Assembly (NCBI GenBank): GCA_003140075.1
Contig: PLIO01000251.1
Span: forward strand, 31,077 to 67,544
Source: Acidobacteriaceae bacterium
GTDB lineage: Bacteria > Acidobacteriota > Terriglobia > Terriglobales > Acidobacteriaceae
DNA: 36,468 bases
Reading direction: 5' to 3'
The notes beneath the pieces are model-generated. The model was not told the DNA's origin. It did no database searches and worked only from the letters and a program-made list of their open reading frames with translations. Both the position numbers and the translations under genes were made by a program. Shown piece by piece: positions 1 through 4,986 of this stretch; position 1 is the first letter of the stretch, and each line of letters starts with the position of its first letter.

Positions 1-2
1 CC

Positions 3-137
3 GATGACGCGGCACAGAACCAACAGCAGCAGAACCAACAGCAACAGCAAACCACAGACGATCATCCGACTCGGAATGATGACACGTCACTGGATCATTT
101 TCGCGAAGGCCACGAGACAGGCGATCTTCGCAAGTAG
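3..137 (+). CDS. C-terminal tail of a Q/N-rich protein, cut by the left edge
   Basis: An open frame enters from the left edge and stops at TAG 135-137, giving 44 residues. The first part is almost only Gln and Asn (AQNQQQQNQQQQQ, from CAG/CAA/AAC codons), followed by a charged tail rich in Asp, His, Arg and Glu. Mixed CAG and CAA codons argue for a selected protein stretch rather than a pure DNA microsatellite. It overlaps the end of the convergent membrane-protein gene by about 50 nt. No domain is recognisable in the visible part and the function is unknown. It could also be a chance open frame across low-complexity DNA. Confidence 0.38.
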   Translation, partial: DDAAQNQQQQNQQQQQTTDDHPTRNDDTSLDHFREGHETGDLRK

Positions 138-647
138 CATTTGATACGCAAAGCCCGCAACTAAAACCGTCGCTGCAAGGATCAGCGACCATTCAGCATA
201 CGCAATCGACCTTGCCTTGGCATTCACGATAGCCAGACGCCCTCTTCTGACATCGTGCATGACGCGGATGTGGTAGCGTTTGAGTTCATCTTCCTGTACA
301 AGCCCCGTCTTATGAATCCAAGATTGGTCACTTGGCCAATCCCAATTCCCTCGCGTGCGGAGCGCGTTAACCGAAAACATCATCCCCACTAGAGCGCATA
401 CTGCACCGACCATCGCGAAATAGAGAACAGCCCCAGACAATCTGTTAGCGCCAGCGAACAGGAAACCAAGGATCGCTGTTGACCATCCGAGCACAGTTAC
501 GGATTGAGCGTTTAGTCTGCCTGCCCTGCTTTGAACTTCCTCCAGTAGCGTCTTCCCAAAGTCATAAAGCTGATCCGTGACTTCTGGTTTCTGGTACGAA
601 TAAACTAAGTCTCTGACTTCTTCTTTCGACAAATCGTTGGTTGCCAT
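87..647 (-). CDS. Small membrane protein, three predicted TM segments, unknown function
   Basis: This is a 186-aa protein if it starts at the ATG at 647, which has a GGAGA ribosome-binding site a few nt upstream; an in-frame ATG 18 nt further up lacks one. A soluble N-terminal helix region of about 45 residues is followed by two adjacent hydrophobic segments (about 50-67 and 71-93), a polar loop of about 55 residues containing NWDWPSDQSW, a basic helix, and a third hydrophobic segment (about 152-175) preceded by NAKARSIAYAEW. The layout of a TM hairpin, cytosolic helix and last TM recalls the small TM effector-like proteins of phage-defence loci (DUF5706/SLATT type). That likeness is by architecture only; I see no diagnostic motif and no nucleotide-sensing partner beside it. 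It lies in the accessory region near a transposase. Confidence 0.62.
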   Translation of the reverse strand: MATNDLSKEEVRDLVYSYQKPEVTDQLYDFGKTLLEEVQSRAGRLNAQSVTVLGWSTAILGFLFAGANRLSGAVLYFAMVGAVCALVGMMFSVNALRTRGNWDWPSDQSWIHKTGLVQEDELKRYHIRVMHDVRRGRLAIVNAKARSIAYAEWSLILAATVLVAGFAYQMLLAKIACLVAFAKMIQ

Positions 648-716
648 GCCGTCTCCGAGGTACAATGGATTCGACAGGCGCTTCTAGTCGCCTTCCAAAA
701 AACCTAGGAACAAATC

Positions 717-750
717 AGGCCCATGACCCGCCAAAGGTTGGGCCTTTCTT
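717..750 (+). terminator. Terminator-like hairpin upstream of the 78-aa gene
   Basis: AGGCCCA (717-723) can pair with TGGGCCT (739-745) around a 15-nt loop and is followed by TTCTTATTT. It lies between the divergent membrane-protein gene and the 78-aa gene, so it does not close any plus-strand gene seen here. It could be an attenuator in the leader of the 78-aa gene or a chance hairpin. Confidence 0.42.
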
Positions 751-777
751 ATTTCAAGCAAACTAAGGACTAATCAA

Positions 778-1014
778 ATGAACGAAAACAATATAATCGC
801 CGGACTTCTTACCGTCGCTTACTCTATGCCTCTGCGCGATGCAGTTGATCCTGAAACAGTCGTGCATACCTATGACACATTCCGCAAGCTACTCCAAGAA
901 CGGGAAGAGAAAGAGCCAGAATCAAAACTCTCAATCCCAGAAGCCCTAAAGCCCCTTGTAGATCAAGCCTTAAGCATGAAACGTGCTCGACAAAAACAAA
1001 GCAGCACTAGCTAA
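778..1014 (+). CDS. Small hypothetical protein (78 aa)
   Basis: The gene starts at ATG with a TAAGGA-like ribosome-binding site about 9 nt upstream and is followed at once by a good intrinsic terminator, which supports a real single-gene transcript. The protein begins MNENNIIAGLLTVAYSMPLR, then has an amphipathic stretch (VVHTYDTFRKLLQEREEKEP) and a basic C-terminus ending in QKQSSTS. There is no signal peptide or TM segment. I do not recognise the family. The weakly hydrophobic start and helical charged middle fit a small cytoplasmic helical protein of the kind found in islands and prophages. Function unknown. Confidence 0.58.
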   Translation: MNENNIIAGLLTVAYSMPLRDAVDPETVVHTYDTFRKLLQEREEKEPESKLSIPEALKPLVDQALSMKRARQKQSSTS

Positions 1015-1025
1015 CGAATCTTTCC

Positions 1026-1063
1026 GCAGAGGTTCAGCCTACGCTCTGGGCCTCTGCTTTTTT
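1026..1063 (+). terminator. Intrinsic terminator of the 78-aa gene
   Basis: GCAGAGG (1026-1032) pairs with CCTCTGC (1051-1057). An inner CAG/CTG pairing extends the stem across a small internal loop, and six T residues follow (1058-1063). It sits 12 nt after the stop of the small plus-strand gene. Confidence 0.8.
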
Positions 1064-1083
1064 CGTCAACGCACATTTCGCCA

Positions 1084-2088
1084 CTAGAAGGGTGCATCCA
1101 TTTGCTCGGCATCTGCGCTCACTTCTACTACTGGCTTGGGAGCATATGGGGGATTCTCAACTGACTCCCGATACTCCAACCGCTTCCCGTCAATCTGCTT
1201 AATTGCAGCCGCTACGCGCTGCCCGTCGTTCATCTTCCGAGTGTTCCATCGGAACTGAAATTCATTCAAGTAGTTCGGCAGATGTTTGCGGCTAACGCTG
1301 TGAAACGTTCCCATGACTCCGCGCCGAATCAGAGAGAACACGCCTTCCACAGTGTTGGAGTGGATGTCAGTTCCGGGCCGCACGTATTCTCCCGCGCCAT
1401 GCGTCACAGTTTCGTGACCGCCTGCGAATGCTTTCCCTACGCGGTGATACACGCCTAGTTCATCGGTAATCATTCGGCAGGATAGATCGGCATTCTCTGC
1501 AACAAACTTCCCGATGTTTTCAGCCGTAACGCGCTCCATCATCCGAAAGCGAACATCCCCGCCGCGTTGCACGATTCCAACTACTGGCGTTTTCCAAGTG
1601 CCGCGTCCGGGCTTCGTGCTGTTTTTGAAACGCGGTTTTCCGCCGATGTAAACTTCGTCCACTTCGATTGTGCCAGTCATTTTCGGCTGATATGCTTCGC
1701 CCAAACCATGACGGATACGACGAAGAATAAACAACGCGCTCTTATGCGTAATCTCCATCTCGCGTGAAAGCTGCAACGCCGAAATCCCCTTCTTGCTGGA
1801 ACATGCTTTCCAGATGCAATAGACCCAAACCCGCAATGGAAGCCGCGTTTCCTCGAATGGCGTGCCAGTGCGAACGGTGAAGAACCGCTTGCACTCACGA
1901 CACCGCCAGCGATAGTCCTTGTTGCGCTCTCCGTCGCGTCCCTTCATCTGGTACACGGCCAGACTCCAGCAACGCGGACATGATGGCGAATCACCCCAGC
2001 GTTGCCGCTCAAGGAAGCTGACCGACAAGGGTTCGCTGACCGCCGCATTTCGGAGTGCTTCAAGAACTGCTGATCGTTGGCGTTTCAT
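1084..2088 (-). CDS. ISXO2-like transposase (IS1595 family)
   Basis: This DDE transposase catalyses cut-and-paste movement of an IS1595-type element. With the longer start (ATG 2106) as numbering, an N-terminal zinc ribbon is visible (CPRC at 43-46, CREC at 69-72). A helical region follows, then the catalytic core: IEVDEVYIGGK (Asp 150), ITDELGVY (Asp 215) and HSNTVEGVFSLIRRG (Asn 251, Glu 254), ending in FQFRWN. All core motifs are intact and the length is normal for the family, so it may be active. I prefer the second ATG (2088, MKRQRSA); neither start has a clear ribosome-binding site. I could not find convincing terminal inverted repeats, so the element borders are not called. GCTTTTTT occurs in direct orientation on both sides (1056-1063 and 2137-2144) and could be a target duplication or chance. 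Confidence 0.9.
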   Translation of the reverse strand: MKRQRSAVLEALRNAAVSEPLSVSFLERQRWGDSPSCPRCWSLAVYQMKGRDGERNKDYRWRCRECKRFFTVRTGTPFEETRLPLRVWVYCIWKACSSKKGISALQLSREMEITHKSALFILRRIRHGLGEAYQPKMTGTIEVDEVYIGGKPRFKNSTKPGRGTWKTPVVGIVQRGGDVRFRMMERVTAENIGKFVAENADLSCRMITDELGVYHRVGKAFAGGHETVTHGAGEYVRPGTDIHSNTVEGVFSLIRRGVMGTFHSVSRKHLPNYLNEFQFRWNTRKMNDGQRVAAAIKQIDGKRLEYRESVENPPYAPKPVVEVSADAEQMDAPF

Positions 2089-2146
2089 GTACAAAAGATA
2101 GCACAAGTTTCACTAAGTAGCAAGATAAATATTTGTGCTTTTTTGT

Positions 2147-2350
2147 CTATCCCGCCGTTTCTGCTTGAGTTAGCGGAACCCCGGCATCGCGTTTTTGCTG
2201 GTAAACCCGGATTGCCGCCGTCAGCTCATCTTGCCTTATTTTGGCGCGAAGGATGTTCGTTTCCGCTAGCGCGATTAGGTCATCCCATGTCTCCAGTTTG
2301 TACCTATCACGTACAACATTATTGTTGACACGTTTGTTGTTTCTGCGCAT
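2147..2350 (-). CDS. Small helical protein (67 aa), unknown function
   Basis: The start is strongly supported: GGAGG lies 4 nt before the ATG at 2350. The protein has a basic, Asn-rich head (MRRNNKRVNNNVVRDR) and a single amphipathic helix with the pattern WDDLIALAETNILRAKIRQD, then QQKRDAGVPLTQAETAG. I remember similar short proteins with WxDLI...AK.R...L...I and a Gly-x-Pro tail from accessory regions of soil bacteria, but cannot name a family. It is divergent from the winged-helix gene, with only 11 nt between the two start codons. The minus-strand start codon lies inside the -10 box of the plus-strand gene, so the two genes probably affect each other's transcription. Confidence 0.58.
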   Translation of the reverse strand: MRRNNKRVNNNVVRDRYKLETWDDLIALAETNILRAKIRQDELTAAIRVYQQKRDAGVPLTQAETAG

Positions 2351-2353
2351 AAT
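2325..2353 (+). promoter_or_regulatory. Near-consensus sigma70 promoter for the winged-helix gene
   Basis: TTGACA (2325-2330) and CATAAT (2348-2353) are separated by exactly 17 nt. The expected transcription start falls at about 2360-2362, on or next to the ATG at 2362. That ATG has no ribosome-binding site, so the transcript is predicted to be leaderless. The -10 box overlaps the start codon of the divergent 67-aa gene. Confidence 0.68.
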
Positions 2354-2361
2354 CCTCCAAT

Positions 2362-2838
2362 ATGGAGCCTAAAGAAATCGCGGAACTCAGGGAAAAGTGG
2401 CAGGCCGAAATCAATGGACTCGTCAAGATGAAGGCCACGATTGACGGCAAGATTATGGGCCTTCAAACCATGATTAAAGGGCTGGACTACATGGAGCACG
2501 GCGCTCCTACGAACCAGACCAAACTTGACCCGTTGCCGTTGCCCCCAGAACTTGCCGACCTTCATTCGATGGGATTGACACCCGCTGTGCGCGCAATTCT
2601 TACGGAAGCTGCGCGTCCGCTCAGGCCGATGCAAATACGTGACCGCCTCAGCGCTTATGCATACGACAAACTTCCGCCCGGTAATCCAATGGCTGCCATA
2701 CACGGCGTCTTGCGCCGTTTGCTCGACATGGGCGAAGCGAAAAAAGTAGTGATTGGATCGAAGCCAGCCTACAGAACACTCACCATGAGCGAAAAAATGG
2801 AGCAAGACACCGAGAAGATGGTGATGCGGAATAGATAG
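2362..2838 (+). CDS. Coiled-coil / winged-helix protein, putative DNA-binding regulator
   Basis: The 158-aa protein has an N-terminal coiled-coil-like helix (about 1-45, EIAELREKWQAEINGLVKMK), a Pro-rich linker and a C-terminal winged-helix-like domain (about 70-145). The latter contains LTPAVRAILTEAARPLRPMQ, IRDRLSAYAYDKLPPGNPMA and HGVLRRLLDMGEAKKV. This matches the general pattern of winged-helix domains that follow a short coiled coil in many soil-bacterial accessory proteins. DNA binding and dimerisation are inferred from this. A near-perfect promoter ends right at the start codon and there is no ribosome-binding site, so translation is probably leaderless. The gene ends in a 10-bp hairpin that includes the stop codon, followed by a tRNA gene 31 nt downstream on the same strand, so gene and tRNA could share a transcript. 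Confidence 0.72.
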   Translation: MEPKEIAELREKWQAEINGLVKMKATIDGKIMGLQTMIKGLDYMEHGAPTNQTKLDPLPLPPELADLHSMGLTPAVRAILTEAARPLRPMQIRDRLSAYAYDKLPPGNPMAAIHGVLRRLLDMGEAKKVVIGSKPAYRTLTMSEKMEQDTEKMVMRNR

Positions 2839-2860
2839 GGCCGCGCTAGACGGCCCTATC
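2834..2860 (+). other. 10-bp hairpin between the winged-helix gene and the tRNA
   Basis: GATAGGGCCG (2834-2843) pairs perfectly with CGGCCCTATC (2851-2860) around the loop CGCTAGA. The stem includes the TAG stop of the upstream gene. No T-tract follows, so it is either a weak terminator or a processing or protective structure 9 nt before the tRNA. Confidence 0.45.
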
Positions 2861-2869
2861 ACTTGCAGT

Positions 2870-2959
2870 CCCCGAGTGGCGGAATTGGCAGACGCGCGTG
2901 GTTTGCGACCACGTGACCCCACACAGGTCGTCCGGGTCCAAGCCCCGGCTCGGGGACCA
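2870..2959 (+). tRNA. Leucine-type (class II) tRNA with anticodon UGC
   Basis: The cloverleaf folds cleanly. Acceptor CCCCGAG pairs with CTCGGGG; U8 is present; the D-arm GCGG..ACGC has A14, A15 and G18-G19 as in tRNA-Leu. The anticodon stem is CGTGG/CCACG with loop TTTGCGA. There is a long variable arm (GACC/GGTC), a T-stem CCGGG/CCCGG, discriminator A73 and an encoded CCA. Body, long arm and A73 are leucine-type, but the 7-nt loop fixes the anticodon as TGC (2904-2906), which reads alanine GCA. The T-loop is TCCAAGC, so C55 replaces the near-universal U55. The acceptor pairing can extend by two more base pairs (GT at 2868-2869 with AC at 2956-2957). Either this is an unusual tRNA that could insert Leu at Ala codons, or a decayed or mobile tRNA-like gene. 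Confidence 0.8.
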
Positions 2960-2987
2960 AAAGTATACAATGCGATGATAGTACGAT

Positions 2988-3116
2988 ATGACGAAGAAAC
3001 CAAAACCGAAGCGCAAGAAAGATAAACCCGGACCAGAAGAGGAACGGCTTATCATTAAGGGCGACCCGCTCAAGGCAATCGCCACGCTCCTCAAGAGCAA
3101 GCCGCCGACGCGCTAG
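2988..3116 (+). CDS. Small lysine-rich protein (42 aa)
   Basis: The short frame begins 29 nt after the tRNA. It encodes a very basic head (MTKKPKPKRKKDKPGPEEER) followed by LIIKGDPLKAIATLLKSKPP and ends in TR. The design, a Lys/Pro-rich start, a PGPE..ERL.I.GD segment and a short amphipathic helix ending in PP, is one I associate with tiny proteins from plasmids, prophages and islands; the likeness is from memory. There is no good ribosome-binding site, which keeps confidence moderate. It lies between the odd tRNA and the endonuclease on the same strand and may belong to the same module. Confidence 0.48.
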   Translation: MTKKPKPKRKKDKPGPEEERLIIKGDPLKAIATLLKSKPPTR

Positions 3117-3324
3117 TCCATGCGTGCGGTCCTTCGTACTACTTGTCAGACGGATTTTCAACAAGTACTTACTCCCGTCTAACCTTGTCCGCGAAAACGA
3201 GTAGGGTCATAGTTTCATTATCGTCGCGAAATGTGTCGATAGAGGCCTCCACGGGAAGCAATCCCGGCGGGGGCTTTAGTTTTCTTCGGCGCAACGACAC
3301 AACAGAGAGGACAAGGGCGGTCGT

Positions 3325-3891
3325 ATGAGTGTGTGGATCGGAGATCTGATGGCGGTGGCCGAAGATGGGTACGAACCGGGTCGCGCGCCAAAACACAGGA
3401 AGCAGGCCAGTAGTAAGAAGATGCAGGCGCAAAGCGCGTCCGAAAACCAAGCTGAAAAGGCTCATGTGAAATGGAAGCATCTGCCTCCCAAGCTAAGAGG
3501 AGAGATAGGCGAGCTGGACTTCCTGAGGAAGGCAATGGGTATGGAACTGCTCGTATCGAAGCCTTGGGGAGACAGTTATCGCTATGATTTCGTAGTGGAT
3601 TACAAAGGCAGGCTATCGAGAACTCAGGTGAGGTCGACAGAATACCGGAGTGGACTGAATGGCTATGCGGTGCACGCATCGGTCTTTGTAGGAAAGAAGG
3701 CCGTGCCCCTGTCCCCTAAGGACATCGATGTTCTCGTCGCCTACGTTTCGACCAGAGACATTTGGTATGTCGTGCCAGTAAGAGCGTTCTATCCCAGAGT
3801 AAGTTTGTGTTTCTATCCGGATGGAAGTACTAAAGGTGCTCTGTTTGAAAAGTACCGTGAAGCTTGGTGGGTACTGATGCGACGAAAATAG
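3325..3891 (+). CDS. PD-(D/E)XK endonuclease, group I intron-associated (I-Ssp6803I) type
   Basis: The 188-aa protein has a basic, probably disordered N-terminus (1-50). The endonuclease fold follows: GEIGELDFLRKA (Glu 60/63), SYRYDFVVD (Asp 88) and RTQVRSTEY (Gln 101, Arg 103), then beta-rich segments ending in DIDVLVAYVSTRDIWYVVPV. This order matches the PD-(D/E)XK family of the tRNA-intron homing enzyme I-Ssp6803I, where the last motif is normally Q-x-K. Here the lysine is replaced by arginine, so catalysis may be altered. DNA cleavage is inferred. Stand-alone members are common in soil bacteria without an intron; I see no group I intron here. ATG 3325 has a weak AAGGG upstream. The next gene is convergent across a strong hairpin. 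Confidence 0.74.
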   Translation: MSVWIGDLMAVAEDGYEPGRAPKHRKQASSKKMQAQSASENQAEKAHVKWKHLPPKLRGEIGELDFLRKAMGMELLVSKPWGDSYRYDFVVDYKGRLSRTQVRSTEYRSGLNGYAVHASVFVGKKAVPLSPKDIDVLVAYVSTRDIWYVVPVRAFYPRVSLCFYPDGSTKGALFEKYREAWWVLMRRK

Positions 3892-3945: not shown

Positions 3946-4986
3946 CTACCGCAATTCTTCCATCGCCGCTTCCAGCGCTTCCCTGCCCGGACGAATGAGC
4001 GACTCCGGCAGTGTAGCCAGCGGTTCATCGACCATGTTCAGCATATCGAGGAAGCTGGGAGCTTTCGTGTTGACGTAGAAAACTCCGGTCAGGACTTCGC
4101 CTTTGTCGTGAGCTTCGGAAAGACGCGTCATAGCGGCGATGCGGTTGGTGGGATCGTAATCTTCTTCGAGTTTGCGCAGGCGCAAGCTGGAACCATCGTG
4201 CATGGTGACATTCATGGTCGTGCCTGCGTCGTACTCGACGTCGATTTCCTCGAAGTGCGGGACAAAGCTCATCTCCTGCAAAGTTTCTTCGTGATCTTTT
4301 ACATACTTGTAGGATTTCGTCGAGCCTTCGTGGTCGTTGAAGGTGACGCAGGGAGAAACGACATCGAGCATCACCGTGCCGTGGTGAGCTATGGCGGCTT
4401 TCAACATGGTACTCAACTGGCGCTTGTCGCCGGAGAATGATCGTCCGACGAAGGTTGCGCCGAGTTCGATGGCGAGGCCGCAGGTATCGATAGGCGGGAG
4501 ATCGTTTATTACTCCCGATTTCAGTTTCGAACCGAGATCGGCAGTCGCGGAGAACTGGCCTTTGGTCAAGCCGTATACGCCGTTATCTTCGATGATGTAG
4601 ATCATGGGAAGATTGCGGCGCATGAGGTGAACGAACTGGCCGATGCCAATGGAAGCGGTATCACCATCGCCGCTGACGCCGAGGGCGATCAGATTGCGAT
4701 TGGCGAGCATGGCTCCGGTGGCGACCGAGGGCATGCGTCCATGCACGGAGTTGAAGCTGTGCGAGCGGTTCATGAAATACGCCGGGCTCTTGGAGGAGCA
4801 ACCGATGCCGCTGAGTTTTGCGACGCGCTCGGGCTGCACGCCCATTTCATACATGGCTTCGATGATGCGCTCTGAAATAGCATTATGCCCGCAGCCGGCG
4901 CACAAAGTAGTCTTGCCACCCTTGTAGTCGATAACACTCAGGCCGATGCGATTGCTTTTCGGTTCTGCGGTAGGCGTAGTCGCCAT
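3946..4986 (-). CDS. korB: 2-oxoglutarate (2-oxoacid):ferredoxin oxidoreductase, beta subunit
   Basis: This is the thiamine-diphosphate subunit of a CoA-dependent 2-oxoacid:ferredoxin oxidoreductase, which decarboxylates the oxoacid to acyl-CoA while reducing ferredoxin, and can run in reverse with low-potential ferredoxin. LCAGCGH supplies Cys 29 and Cys 32, with Cys 63 (GIGCSS) and Cys 213 (SPCVTF), the four-Cys pattern for the 4Fe-4S cluster. The ThDP/Mg motif is GDGDTASIGIGQ (from 106) through EDNGVYGLTKGQ. The length (346 aa) is typical of the KorB type. It starts immediately after the korA stop (TAA then ATG) with GGAGG just upstream inside korA, so the two are translationally linked. 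Two-subunit enzymes of this kind usually prefer 2-oxoglutarate; pyruvate or branched oxoacids remain possible. Confidence 0.9.
   Translation of the reverse strand: MATTPTAEPKSNRIGLSVIDYKGGKTTLCAGCGHNAISERIIEAMYEMGVQPERVAKLSGIGCSSKSPAYFMNRSHSFNSVHGRMPSVATGAMLANRNLIALGVSGDGDTASIGIGQFVHLMRRNLPMIYIIEDNGVYGLTKGQFSATADLGSKLKSGVINDLPPIDTCGLAIELGATFVGRSFSGDKRQLSTMLKAAIAHHGTVMLDVVSPCVTFNDHEGSTKSYKYVKDHEETLQEMSFVPHFEEIDVEYDAGTTMNVTMHDGSSLRLRKLEEDYDPTNRIAAMTRLSEAHDKGEVLTGVFYVNTKAPSFLDMLNMVDEPLATLPESLIRPGREALEAAMEELR

Follow-up and report, generated by a model that had tools for sequence, protein, structure and literature searches.

An IS1595-Family Transposon Carrying a Leucine-Type tRNA Gene With an Alanine Anticodon, and Its Relatives

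Gene Content of the Locus

The window is a stretch of 36,468 nucleotides from contig PLIO01000251.1 of an Acidobacteriaceae bacterium (GCA_003140075.1; genome G000 below). Its left part is occupied by an IS1595-family transposon, and the following features were assigned there, in window positions:

1-3177: IS1595-family transposon with passenger genes (transposase domain, right end and duplication, syntenic copies)
87-665 (-): 192-aa ORF (ORF list); the left part of the element, where it lies, is variable
1084-2106 (-): IS1595 (ISXO2-like) transposase gene (PF12762, E 2.5e-34; PF12760, E 1.2e-6), conserved start probably at 2088
2147-2350 (-): 67-aa ORF, divergent from the winged-helix gene (ORF lists; G014, G439 and G710 also have an ORF there)
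2325-2353 (+): promoter-like site TTGACA-17-CATAAT, 11/12, preceding the winged-helix, tRNA and Lys-rich genes (consensus scan)
2362-2838 (+): gene for a 158-aa protein with a coiled coil and a predicted winged helix (AlphaFold model)
2834-2860 (+): predicted hairpin between the winged-helix and tRNA genes (folding of the 70 nt preceding the tRNA)
2870-2959 (+): leucine-type class II tRNA gene (ARAGORN call, drawn cloverleaf, R1 score); anticodon UGC at 2904-2906, C55 at 2938, A73-CCA at 2956-2959
2988-3116 (+): gene for a 42-aa Lys-rich protein with the core GP..ERL.I.GDP..AI..LL (alignments A2 and A5)
3155-3177 (+): right terminal inverted repeat, TTTTCAACAAGTACTTACTCCCG; a near-identical sequence ends the G014 and L091 elements
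3178-3185 (+): 8-bp target duplication, TCTAACCT, which recurs before the NN gap upstream of the window

The PF12762 domain (DDE_Tnp_IS1595) of the transposase spans residues 143-288, and the protein is 46-91% identical to the five other transposases in alignment A3. Members of the IS1595 family produce target duplications of 8 bp. To the left, the window most likely consists of transposon throughout, since TCTAACCT stands both after the right end and before the NN assembly gap, where the contig sequence immediately preceding position 1 reads TCTAACCTNN; the left inverted repeat is absent from the window and was apparently lost in that gap. The element therefore shows the transposase domain, terminal repeat and 8-bp duplication of the family, and its genes run in the order transposase, divergent 67-aa ORF, coiled-coil/winged-helix gene, hairpin, tRNA, Lys-rich protein and right repeat. 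The tRNA is a built-in passenger of this transposon. The sequence-only reading had proposed a mobile tRNA between a winged-helix gene and a Lys-rich gene, which agrees with its place as a passenger, with the recurrence of the association (see below) and with the predicted fold of the upstream protein.

In the AlphaFold model of the 158-aa protein (mean pLDDT 76.2, pTM 0.51), a helix at residues 3-46 precedes a putative winged-helix part at about 62-139; the blocks covering 71-140 reach pLDDT 75-92 and block 61-70 only 50. Foldseek against the PDB returned mostly helix-turn-helix and winged-helix DNA-binding proteins, none below E 0.001. The protein has no Pfam match of its own above the cut-off, and the corresponding gene of the related element L293 gave HARE-HTH at E 3.6e-5 with 24.5 bits, below the cut-off of 25.9. 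The 67-aa ORF gave no Pfam match above the cut-off, the 192-aa ORF gave no Pfam or PHROG match, and the Lys-rich protein is 80% identical to its copy in G014. The consensus scan of 2080-3200 found two promoter sites against a shuffled mean of 0.9, and for the site at 2325-2353 this is no proof of a function. Stems like the hairpin before the tRNA were seen by eye before many other element tRNAs, those of L292 and L337 not being clear. Just beyond the right end of the transposon lies a PDDEXK_5 endonuclease-like gene (3325-3891(+), E 8.9e-15).

The tRNA Gene and Its Leucine-Type Body

ARAGORN reported a single tRNA in the window, at 2870-2959(+), of 90 nt and with the anticodon tgc. The drawn cloverleaf has 7 acceptor, 3 D, 5 anticodon, 4 variable-arm and 5 T pairs, and both analyses bore out the complete cloverleaf, UGC anticodon and C55 first read from the letters; the T loop is TCCAAGC, which makes the C55 reading correct. 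The body has A73, an encoded CCA, A14-A15 and G18-G19 in the D loop and a long variable arm. By its long variable arm, A73, A14 and G18-G19 it fits a tRNA-Leu isoacceptor, and its anticodon UGC is not a leucine anticodon (NAG or YAA). The initial statement that all its features are those of leucine tRNAs stands for the variable arm, A73, A14-A15, G18-G19 and CCA and fails for the first acceptor pair, which is C1:G72 here and G1:C72 in the five other leucine tRNAs seen in G000. By eye, the anticodon arm is similar to that of the Leu(CAG) tRNA of G000.

Covariance models gave a mixed answer. Rfam RF00005 did not match the window tRNA, even in a 131-bp piece at E<=10, for which the speed filter or the score is a possible cause; three ordinary leucine tRNAs of G000 scored 56.4, 49.2 and 47.4 bits with it. 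The model R1 was built from 11 element tRNAs including the window tRNA, which therefore matches it by construction (93.0 bits); five ordinary leucine tRNAs scored 71.2-78.0 bits, three serine tRNAs 38.2-50.4 bits and two alanine tRNAs 30.7 and 37.0 bits.

Related Elements and Their Spread

The genome G000 (5.77 Mb in 276 contigs) has a single copy of the tRNA element. Of the 45 genomes searched in the genus, G014 alone has a full-length match to the transposase, with 85% DNA identity (76% for the Lys-rich gene), and its contig C24 shows the same order of transposase, small divergent ORF, winged-helix-like gene, tRNA (UGC, C55) and Lys-rich gene. The G014 element starts with CGGGAATAGGTACTTGTTGAAA, ends with TTTCAACAGATACTTACTCCCG and is flanked by two copies of AGGTCAGA. 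A profile search with the Lys-rich protein added G439 and G710 of another genus, with the same gene order and a UGC, C55 tRNA identical in both; these elements are flanked by two GTTTAGTT and two AAAGAGTT, respectively, and that of G439 is about 2.1 kb long. The tRNA was thus recovered with both flanking genes in G014, G439 and G710, in the same place and with UGC and C55 kept, as conservation of the UGC loop would have it. The window tRNA is a genuine tRNA gene and no chance fold.

In 396 genomes of the phylum, the Lys-rich profile gave four matches at E<=0.01, one of which (G436) had no tRNA call. In 398 genomes of the family it gave ten matches at E<=0.05, of which G000, G014, G439, G710 and G315 carry the tRNA, while G541, G497, G543 and G451 had no tRNA call. 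In G012 (L285/L278) a deletion remnant was seen, in which the apparent end of a transposase is fused to the Lys-rich gene and the tRNA is missing. G315, first found as a weak match, holds a divergent element with a winged-helix-like gene, a leucine-type tRNA with the proline anticodon UGG, the transposase and a 50-aa Lys-rich protein, flanked by two TTTGCTAA. A search of 287 phylum genomes with the G315 transposase matched 53, and 3 of the 30 loci examined have element tRNAs: L300 (G315), L302 (G014) and L305 (G159), the last with a serine-type UGG tRNA with C55. With a second profile of the Lys-rich protein, 5 of 297 genomes gave a match and no new tRNA element came to light; the one new locus, a weak one in G354, lay outside the tRNA-finder run. 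In plasmids and phages the Lys-rich protein had no match at E 0.1, and the transposase matched 41 and 40 plasmid records, all below 60% identity.

Outside the phylum, a Planctomycetota MAG (L091) has a G000-type element with a partial transposase of 62% identity, a UGC tRNA and nearly the same right repeat. Scans of IMG/VR viral contigs by transposase and Lys-rich alignments found L290 (UGC) and L292, L293, L296 and L331 (UGG). They also found L295, with a serine-type CGC tRNA and a second, leucine-type one (UGG) whose variable arm is very long, and L337, with an AGG tRNA that has C33. The viral pattern scan described below added L178, an incomplete UGG element.

In total, 15 related elements including the window copy, from Acidobacteriota (the phylum of the window), one Planctomycetota MAG and IMG/VR contigs, hold 16 class II tRNAs; the tally omits the contig-end loci L294/L336, L297-L299 and L341-L343 and the remnant L278/L285, and the UGU tRNA of L173 was excluded because it lies outside the IS repeats. 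The anticodons are UGC (6), UGG (8), CGC (1) and AGG (1), so all 16 read alanine or proline codons and none reads leucine or serine codons. By eye and by R1 score, 14 bodies are leucine-type and two (L305 and L295) serine-type. U33 is present in 15 of the 16 and an encoded CCA in 8. C55 is kept in G000, G014, G439, G710 and L290 and occurs also in L305, U55 is found in L091 (UGC) and most UGG elements, and L293 has G55; C55 is therefore a lineage trait and not a general requirement.

Both terminal repeats were found in G014, G439, G710, G315, L290, L292, L293, L295, L296, L305, L331 and L337, and in elements with both ends seen they enclose the tRNA. By eye, 8-bp duplications flank 11 of the 15 elements (G000, G014, G439, G710, G315, L290, L292, L293, L296, L305 and L331); none was seen for L295 and L337, and L091 and L178 were outside this test. 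ARAGORN and R1 found no tRNA at the related transposase loci L291, L301, L303, L304, L334/L335, L339 and L340. L301 (G000:C142:33504-34430) is a second IS1595 element of the group in G000, with a Lys-rich gene and other ORFs; having no detected tRNA, it indicates that the tRNA is seemingly not needed for transposition as such. Ordinary-looking tRNA calls lie near the transposase in L309 and L327 (Ser GGA and Phe GAA).

The fold was compared in 11 leucine-type element tRNAs of the 16, leaving out G710 (identical to G439), the two serine-type tRNAs and the leucine-type tRNAs of L295 and L337. In this alignment, 98.0% of 253 cells are paired, and both sides have changed in 17 of the 23 pairs; the covariation score of 0.832 compares with 0.115-0.163 for slid structures. 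Having been drawn from this very alignment, the structure has an advantage over the slid versions, but that does not account for the 74 double-change cells. This compensatory pairing indicates that the element RNAs are kept as tRNAs with a fold under selection, and it contradicts the earlier suggestion of a decaying copy. A decaying or chimeric pseudogene, arisen when a leucine tRNA recombined with an alanine tRNA, is accordingly hardly credible: it could draw on the missing RF00005 match, the unusual C1:G72 and C55 and the Leu(CAG)-like anticodon arm, and it is opposed by the perfect cloverleaf, the 17 doubly changed pairs and the retention of UGC and C55 in the same place in four genomes.

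Mismatched tRNAs in Other Contexts

In the elements of G000, G014, G439, G710, G315 and L178, a coiled-coil/winged-helix-like gene lies immediately upstream of the tRNA. Similar pairs were met elsewhere. In Azospirillum cavernae K2W22B-5 (L076), a named strain and hence a possible experimental system, tandem leucine-type UGC tRNAs (4043-4131 and 4291-4379(+)) lie directly behind a coiled-coil/winged-helix-like gene with weak Pfam HTH matches only. In the Zixibacteriota MAG L098, a leucine-type UGC tRNA (2127-2213(-)) has a winged-helix-like gene on one side, its Pfam HTH matches again being no more than weak, and an IS1-like transposase on the other; just upstream of this tRNA is a stretch resembling the 3' half of a tRNA, with TTTGCAC, which ARAGORN did not call. 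Since these two arrangements are outside IS1595, the pair of winged-helix gene and mismatched tRNA may predate the IS1595 link.

L076 and L098 came from a scan of genome contigs for a leucine D arm with UGC, which gave 25 stretches. Eight of them have a class II UGC tRNA by ARAGORN (L076 with two copies, L079, L085, L091, L094, L098, L099 and L100), two are likely by eye (L087 and L096), eight are apparent group I introns of tRNA-Leu(UAA) and seven are apparently due to chance. The viral scan with the non-A35 pattern gave at least 120 stretches in at least 80 loci, and 29 of 112 matches in L076-L185 passed the pairing cut. Fourteen IMG/VR loci (L114, L122, L126, L133, L142, L145, L147, L149, L154, L159, L165, L167, L177 and L181) have leucine-like D arms, long variable arms and mismatched anticodons, namely Asn, Gly, Asp, Pro, Ala, His or amber (CTA), and no IS1595 transposase was present in the stretches examined.

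These scans say little about absence. A DNA search of relatives with the window tRNA matched 58 of 61 genomes, where outside G000 the matches cover only parts fitting ordinary leucine tRNA arms, and it was insensitive, the G014 copy not being reported. The strict leucine D-arm pattern with non-A35 matched 1 of 396 genomes and is no proof of absence because it missed the tRNAs of G014, G439 and G315. Several real tRNAs escaped the self-written cloverleaf scans, and no absence is concluded from these.

Other odd tRNAs were noted in G000 itself. L041 (199-288(-); G000:C213:7201-7287) has a serine-like class II body with the Phe anticodon GAA, a C2-C71 mismatch and 35.4 bits with R1. L047 (199-272(+); G000:C253) is by eye a glycine-like tRNA with the Arg anticodon GCG, and L048 (206-280(-); G000:C121) has a valine anticodon and two broken acceptor pairs.

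Codon Use in the Transposases

In the transposases of the UGC carriers G000, G439, L290 and L091, the mean share of Ala in homologues is 0.152 at GCA codons (24) against 0.342 at other Ala codons (56), with a permutation p of 1e-4. In UGG carriers, L337 left out, the share of Pro is 0.089 at CCA codons (26) against 0.288 at other Pro codons (39), reached in 0 of 4000 permutations. Both values describe a bias found post hoc, after several other codon tests, in related sequences that are not independent. The crossed controls were without effect, with p 0.61 for CCA in UGC carriers and p 0.18 for GCA in UGG carriers; the latter includes L337, whose AGG anticodon was counted as UGG, and is 0.12 without it. 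In columns with Ala in at least half of 46 transposases, the six UGC carriers have GCA at 0 of 21 Ala positions against 39 of 100 elsewhere; the same split gave 22/115 against 99/607 in transposases counted as having no tRNA, with L337 wrongly among them. With one value per column the effect is weak: the p values for the two biases were 0.066 and 0.21, L337 being counted as without tRNA, and in a second run 0.016 and 0.020, with controls at 0.148 and 0.044.

No overall depletion of the cognate codon was seen (GCA 75/343 in UGC carriers and 57/282 in UGG carriers), in a count with provisional choices for some ORFs and an incorrect frame for the G014 Lys-rich gene. GCA is not enriched at leucine positions (1/39 against 0/81 for other Ala codons), nor is CCA at leucine columns by the same cut. 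Positions with Ser in homologues were found for 4 of 24 CCA and 1 of 38 other Pro codons, and at one C-terminal column CCA occurs in three UGG carriers opposite a residue that is mostly Leu in homologues; there is no clear indication that the cognate codon takes the place of leucine. In two alignment columns the cognate codon is fixed, GCA in 6/6 and CCA in 6/6 of the carriers having that residue, with L337 counted as without tRNA. The tendency of the cognate codon to avoid conserved Ala and Pro positions of the transposase is a hint of ambiguous decoding, since that is what such decoding would do, and it is the only in silico hint of the deliberate mistranslation that the sequence-only reading considered.

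What the tRNA May Do

What is observed is a tRNA inside a transposon, with its fold, anticodon class and gene neighbours conserved. The bodies of the element tRNAs belong to two class II types, leucine and serine, whose synthetases do not read the anticodon. For SerRS, this is also stated in the excerpt of PMC7609411. The host leucyl-tRNA synthetase, ignoring the anticodon, most likely charges the window tRNA with leucine; the charged tRNA would compete weakly with the host tRNA-Ala(UGC), and some GCA codons would thereby be read as leucine. The canonical tRNA-Ala(UGC) was found in G439 and G710 by an exact D-arm pattern, which returned no UGC tRNA-Ala in G000, G014, G315 and G159, a limit of the pattern or the assemblies being possible. 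A role in regulating or helping the tRNA is probable for the winged-helix gene upstream of it, and the Lys-rich protein may take part; what the element gains would, in the simplest case, be a tuning of its own or the host's protein synthesis. We infer leucine charging, use by the ribosome, ambiguity of GCA and benefit to the element, and the element tRNAs may in this way make the cell insert a wrong amino acid. Missense decoding is the most likely function of the element tRNAs, at about even odds, and the whole reading, in which a selected IS1595 passenger with a leucine body and an alanine anticodon is charged by LeuRS and reads some GCA as leucine, has a similar, roughly one-to-one chance of being right. 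Counting against it are the lack of overall codon depletion and of GCA enrichment at leucine positions, the existence of related elements with no tRNA, one of them in G000, and the encoded CCA being present in just 8 of the 16 copies.

The element tRNA could be selected for a task other than translation, as a structured RNA partner of the winged-helix or Lys-rich protein: it might, for example, serve as antitoxin or decoy, regulate the synthesis of transposase, or shield the element. This is a serious though less probable alternative. The winged-helix-like gene immediately upstream in six elements, and the UGC tRNAs of L076 and L098 outside IS1595, are what such a partnership would look like, as are the unusual T loops (C55 or G55) of several copies and the C33 of L337. 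The excerpt of PMC7609411 describes RNAs of the allo-tRNA kind that proved unchargeable by E. coli enzymes, and mentions a suggested link to transposons or toxin-antitoxin systems. However, anticodons for Ala and Pro only, U33 in 15 of the 16 and CCA in 8 are hard to explain without decoding, and the position bias of the cognate codons in the transposases speaks against it as well.

In a more elaborate form of missense decoding, GCA (or CCA) would partly mean leucine (or serine), but solely in the presence of an active element, the transposase codons being adapted and the tRNA level gating the transposase. Cognate codons would then sit at chosen transposase sites and be shunned at conserved Ala and Pro sites. 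This version we regard as rather unlikely.

Less likely still is a beneficial passenger, that is, a tRNA that helps the host through mistranslation in times of stress and is merely spread by the transposon. Some insertion sequences do carry passenger genes (tIS; excerpt of PMC7986276), and tRNA-ProX (excerpt of PMC11415595) and allo-tRNAs (excerpt of PMC7609411) show that bacteria keep mistranslating tRNAs; the rare and patchy occurrence, with the Lys-rich profile finding the tRNA in at least 5 of 398 family genomes, is at odds with such a benefit. That the RNA is an alanine tRNA in disguise, to which a synthetase adds Ala and which only supports GCA decoding, is very improbable: the UGC anticodon would fit, but G3:U70 is absent from all UGC copies, so that charging by AlaRS is unlikely, the variable arm is long, and the UGG sister elements would need a second explanation.

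Natural code-breaking tRNAs are rare. Here they are linked to one group of transposons, with a recurring neighbourhood and a strict choice of anticodon in all 16 tRNAs, over two phyla and virus contigs, by which the purpose of mistranslating tRNAs becomes a testable question in a unit of 2-3 kb. If missense decoding is the function, the group would connect mobile DNA to codon ambiguity and offer ready tRNAs for work on the genetic code.

Comparison With Known Systems

The insertion sequences of the IS1595 family have a transposase domain, terminal repeats and 8-bp duplications, and some carry passengers (tIS). The elements described here share all four properties, but differ in that a tRNA is the recurrent passenger.

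Allo-tRNAs, known in Acidobacteria, have non-cognate anticodons and a long variable arm; they have 8/4 or 9/3 acceptor/T arms (12 bp), their identity is serine or, with G3:U70, alanine, and their anticodons cover 35 codons. An allo-tRNA(UAU) pseudogene overlaps a transposon-related ORF, and transposons or toxin-antitoxin systems are named as a possible home of such RNAs (PMC7609411, excerpt). As far as that excerpt goes, the element tRNAs resemble them in the non-cognate anticodon, the long variable arm and an identity that lies in the body and not in the anticodon. In contrast, they have 7/5 arms, are mostly leucine-type, have so far only Ala and Pro anticodons and lie inside a defined transposon. 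The window tRNA is no allo-tRNA by its 7/5 arms and its leucine-type body with A73 and without serine identity.

Another bacterial tRNA of dual identity is tRNA-ProX of Streptomyces and Kitasatospora, which mistranslates in E. coli and has Ala among its target codons (PMC11415595, excerpt). The Ala codon target is shared, but tRNA-ProX has a proline body, A33, A34 and a dedicated ProRSx, and a term search of that paper returned no transposon. The window tRNA differs from it in its class II body, U33 and U34, and none of the seven neighbouring ORFs scanned in the window matched a synthetase.

The nev-tRNAs of nematodes are conserved variable-arm tRNAs that are charged with leucine in vitro, have other anticodons and gave no detected mistranslation (PMC4300185, excerpt). 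They are similar in design, being leucine-charged with the anticodon of another amino acid, but according to the excerpt they are eukaryotic, have Gly or Ile anticodons and showed no detected mistranslation in C. elegans. The element tRNAs sit in prokaryote genomes and are not the nematode-specific kind. By analogy, and within what the excerpt covers, a similar design without detectable mistranslation would count against missense decoding.

In the literature on IS1595 passengers, searched at title level and mostly outside subscription journals, no report of a tRNA passenger was found, and a search for allo-tRNAs with a transposase or transposon-borne tRNAs, again mostly outside subscription journals, found no paper. 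The tRNA-carrying IS1595 group is thus apparently undescribed so far, and what is new is a defined group of transposons with a built-in mismatched tRNA that is so far limited to Ala and Pro anticodons.
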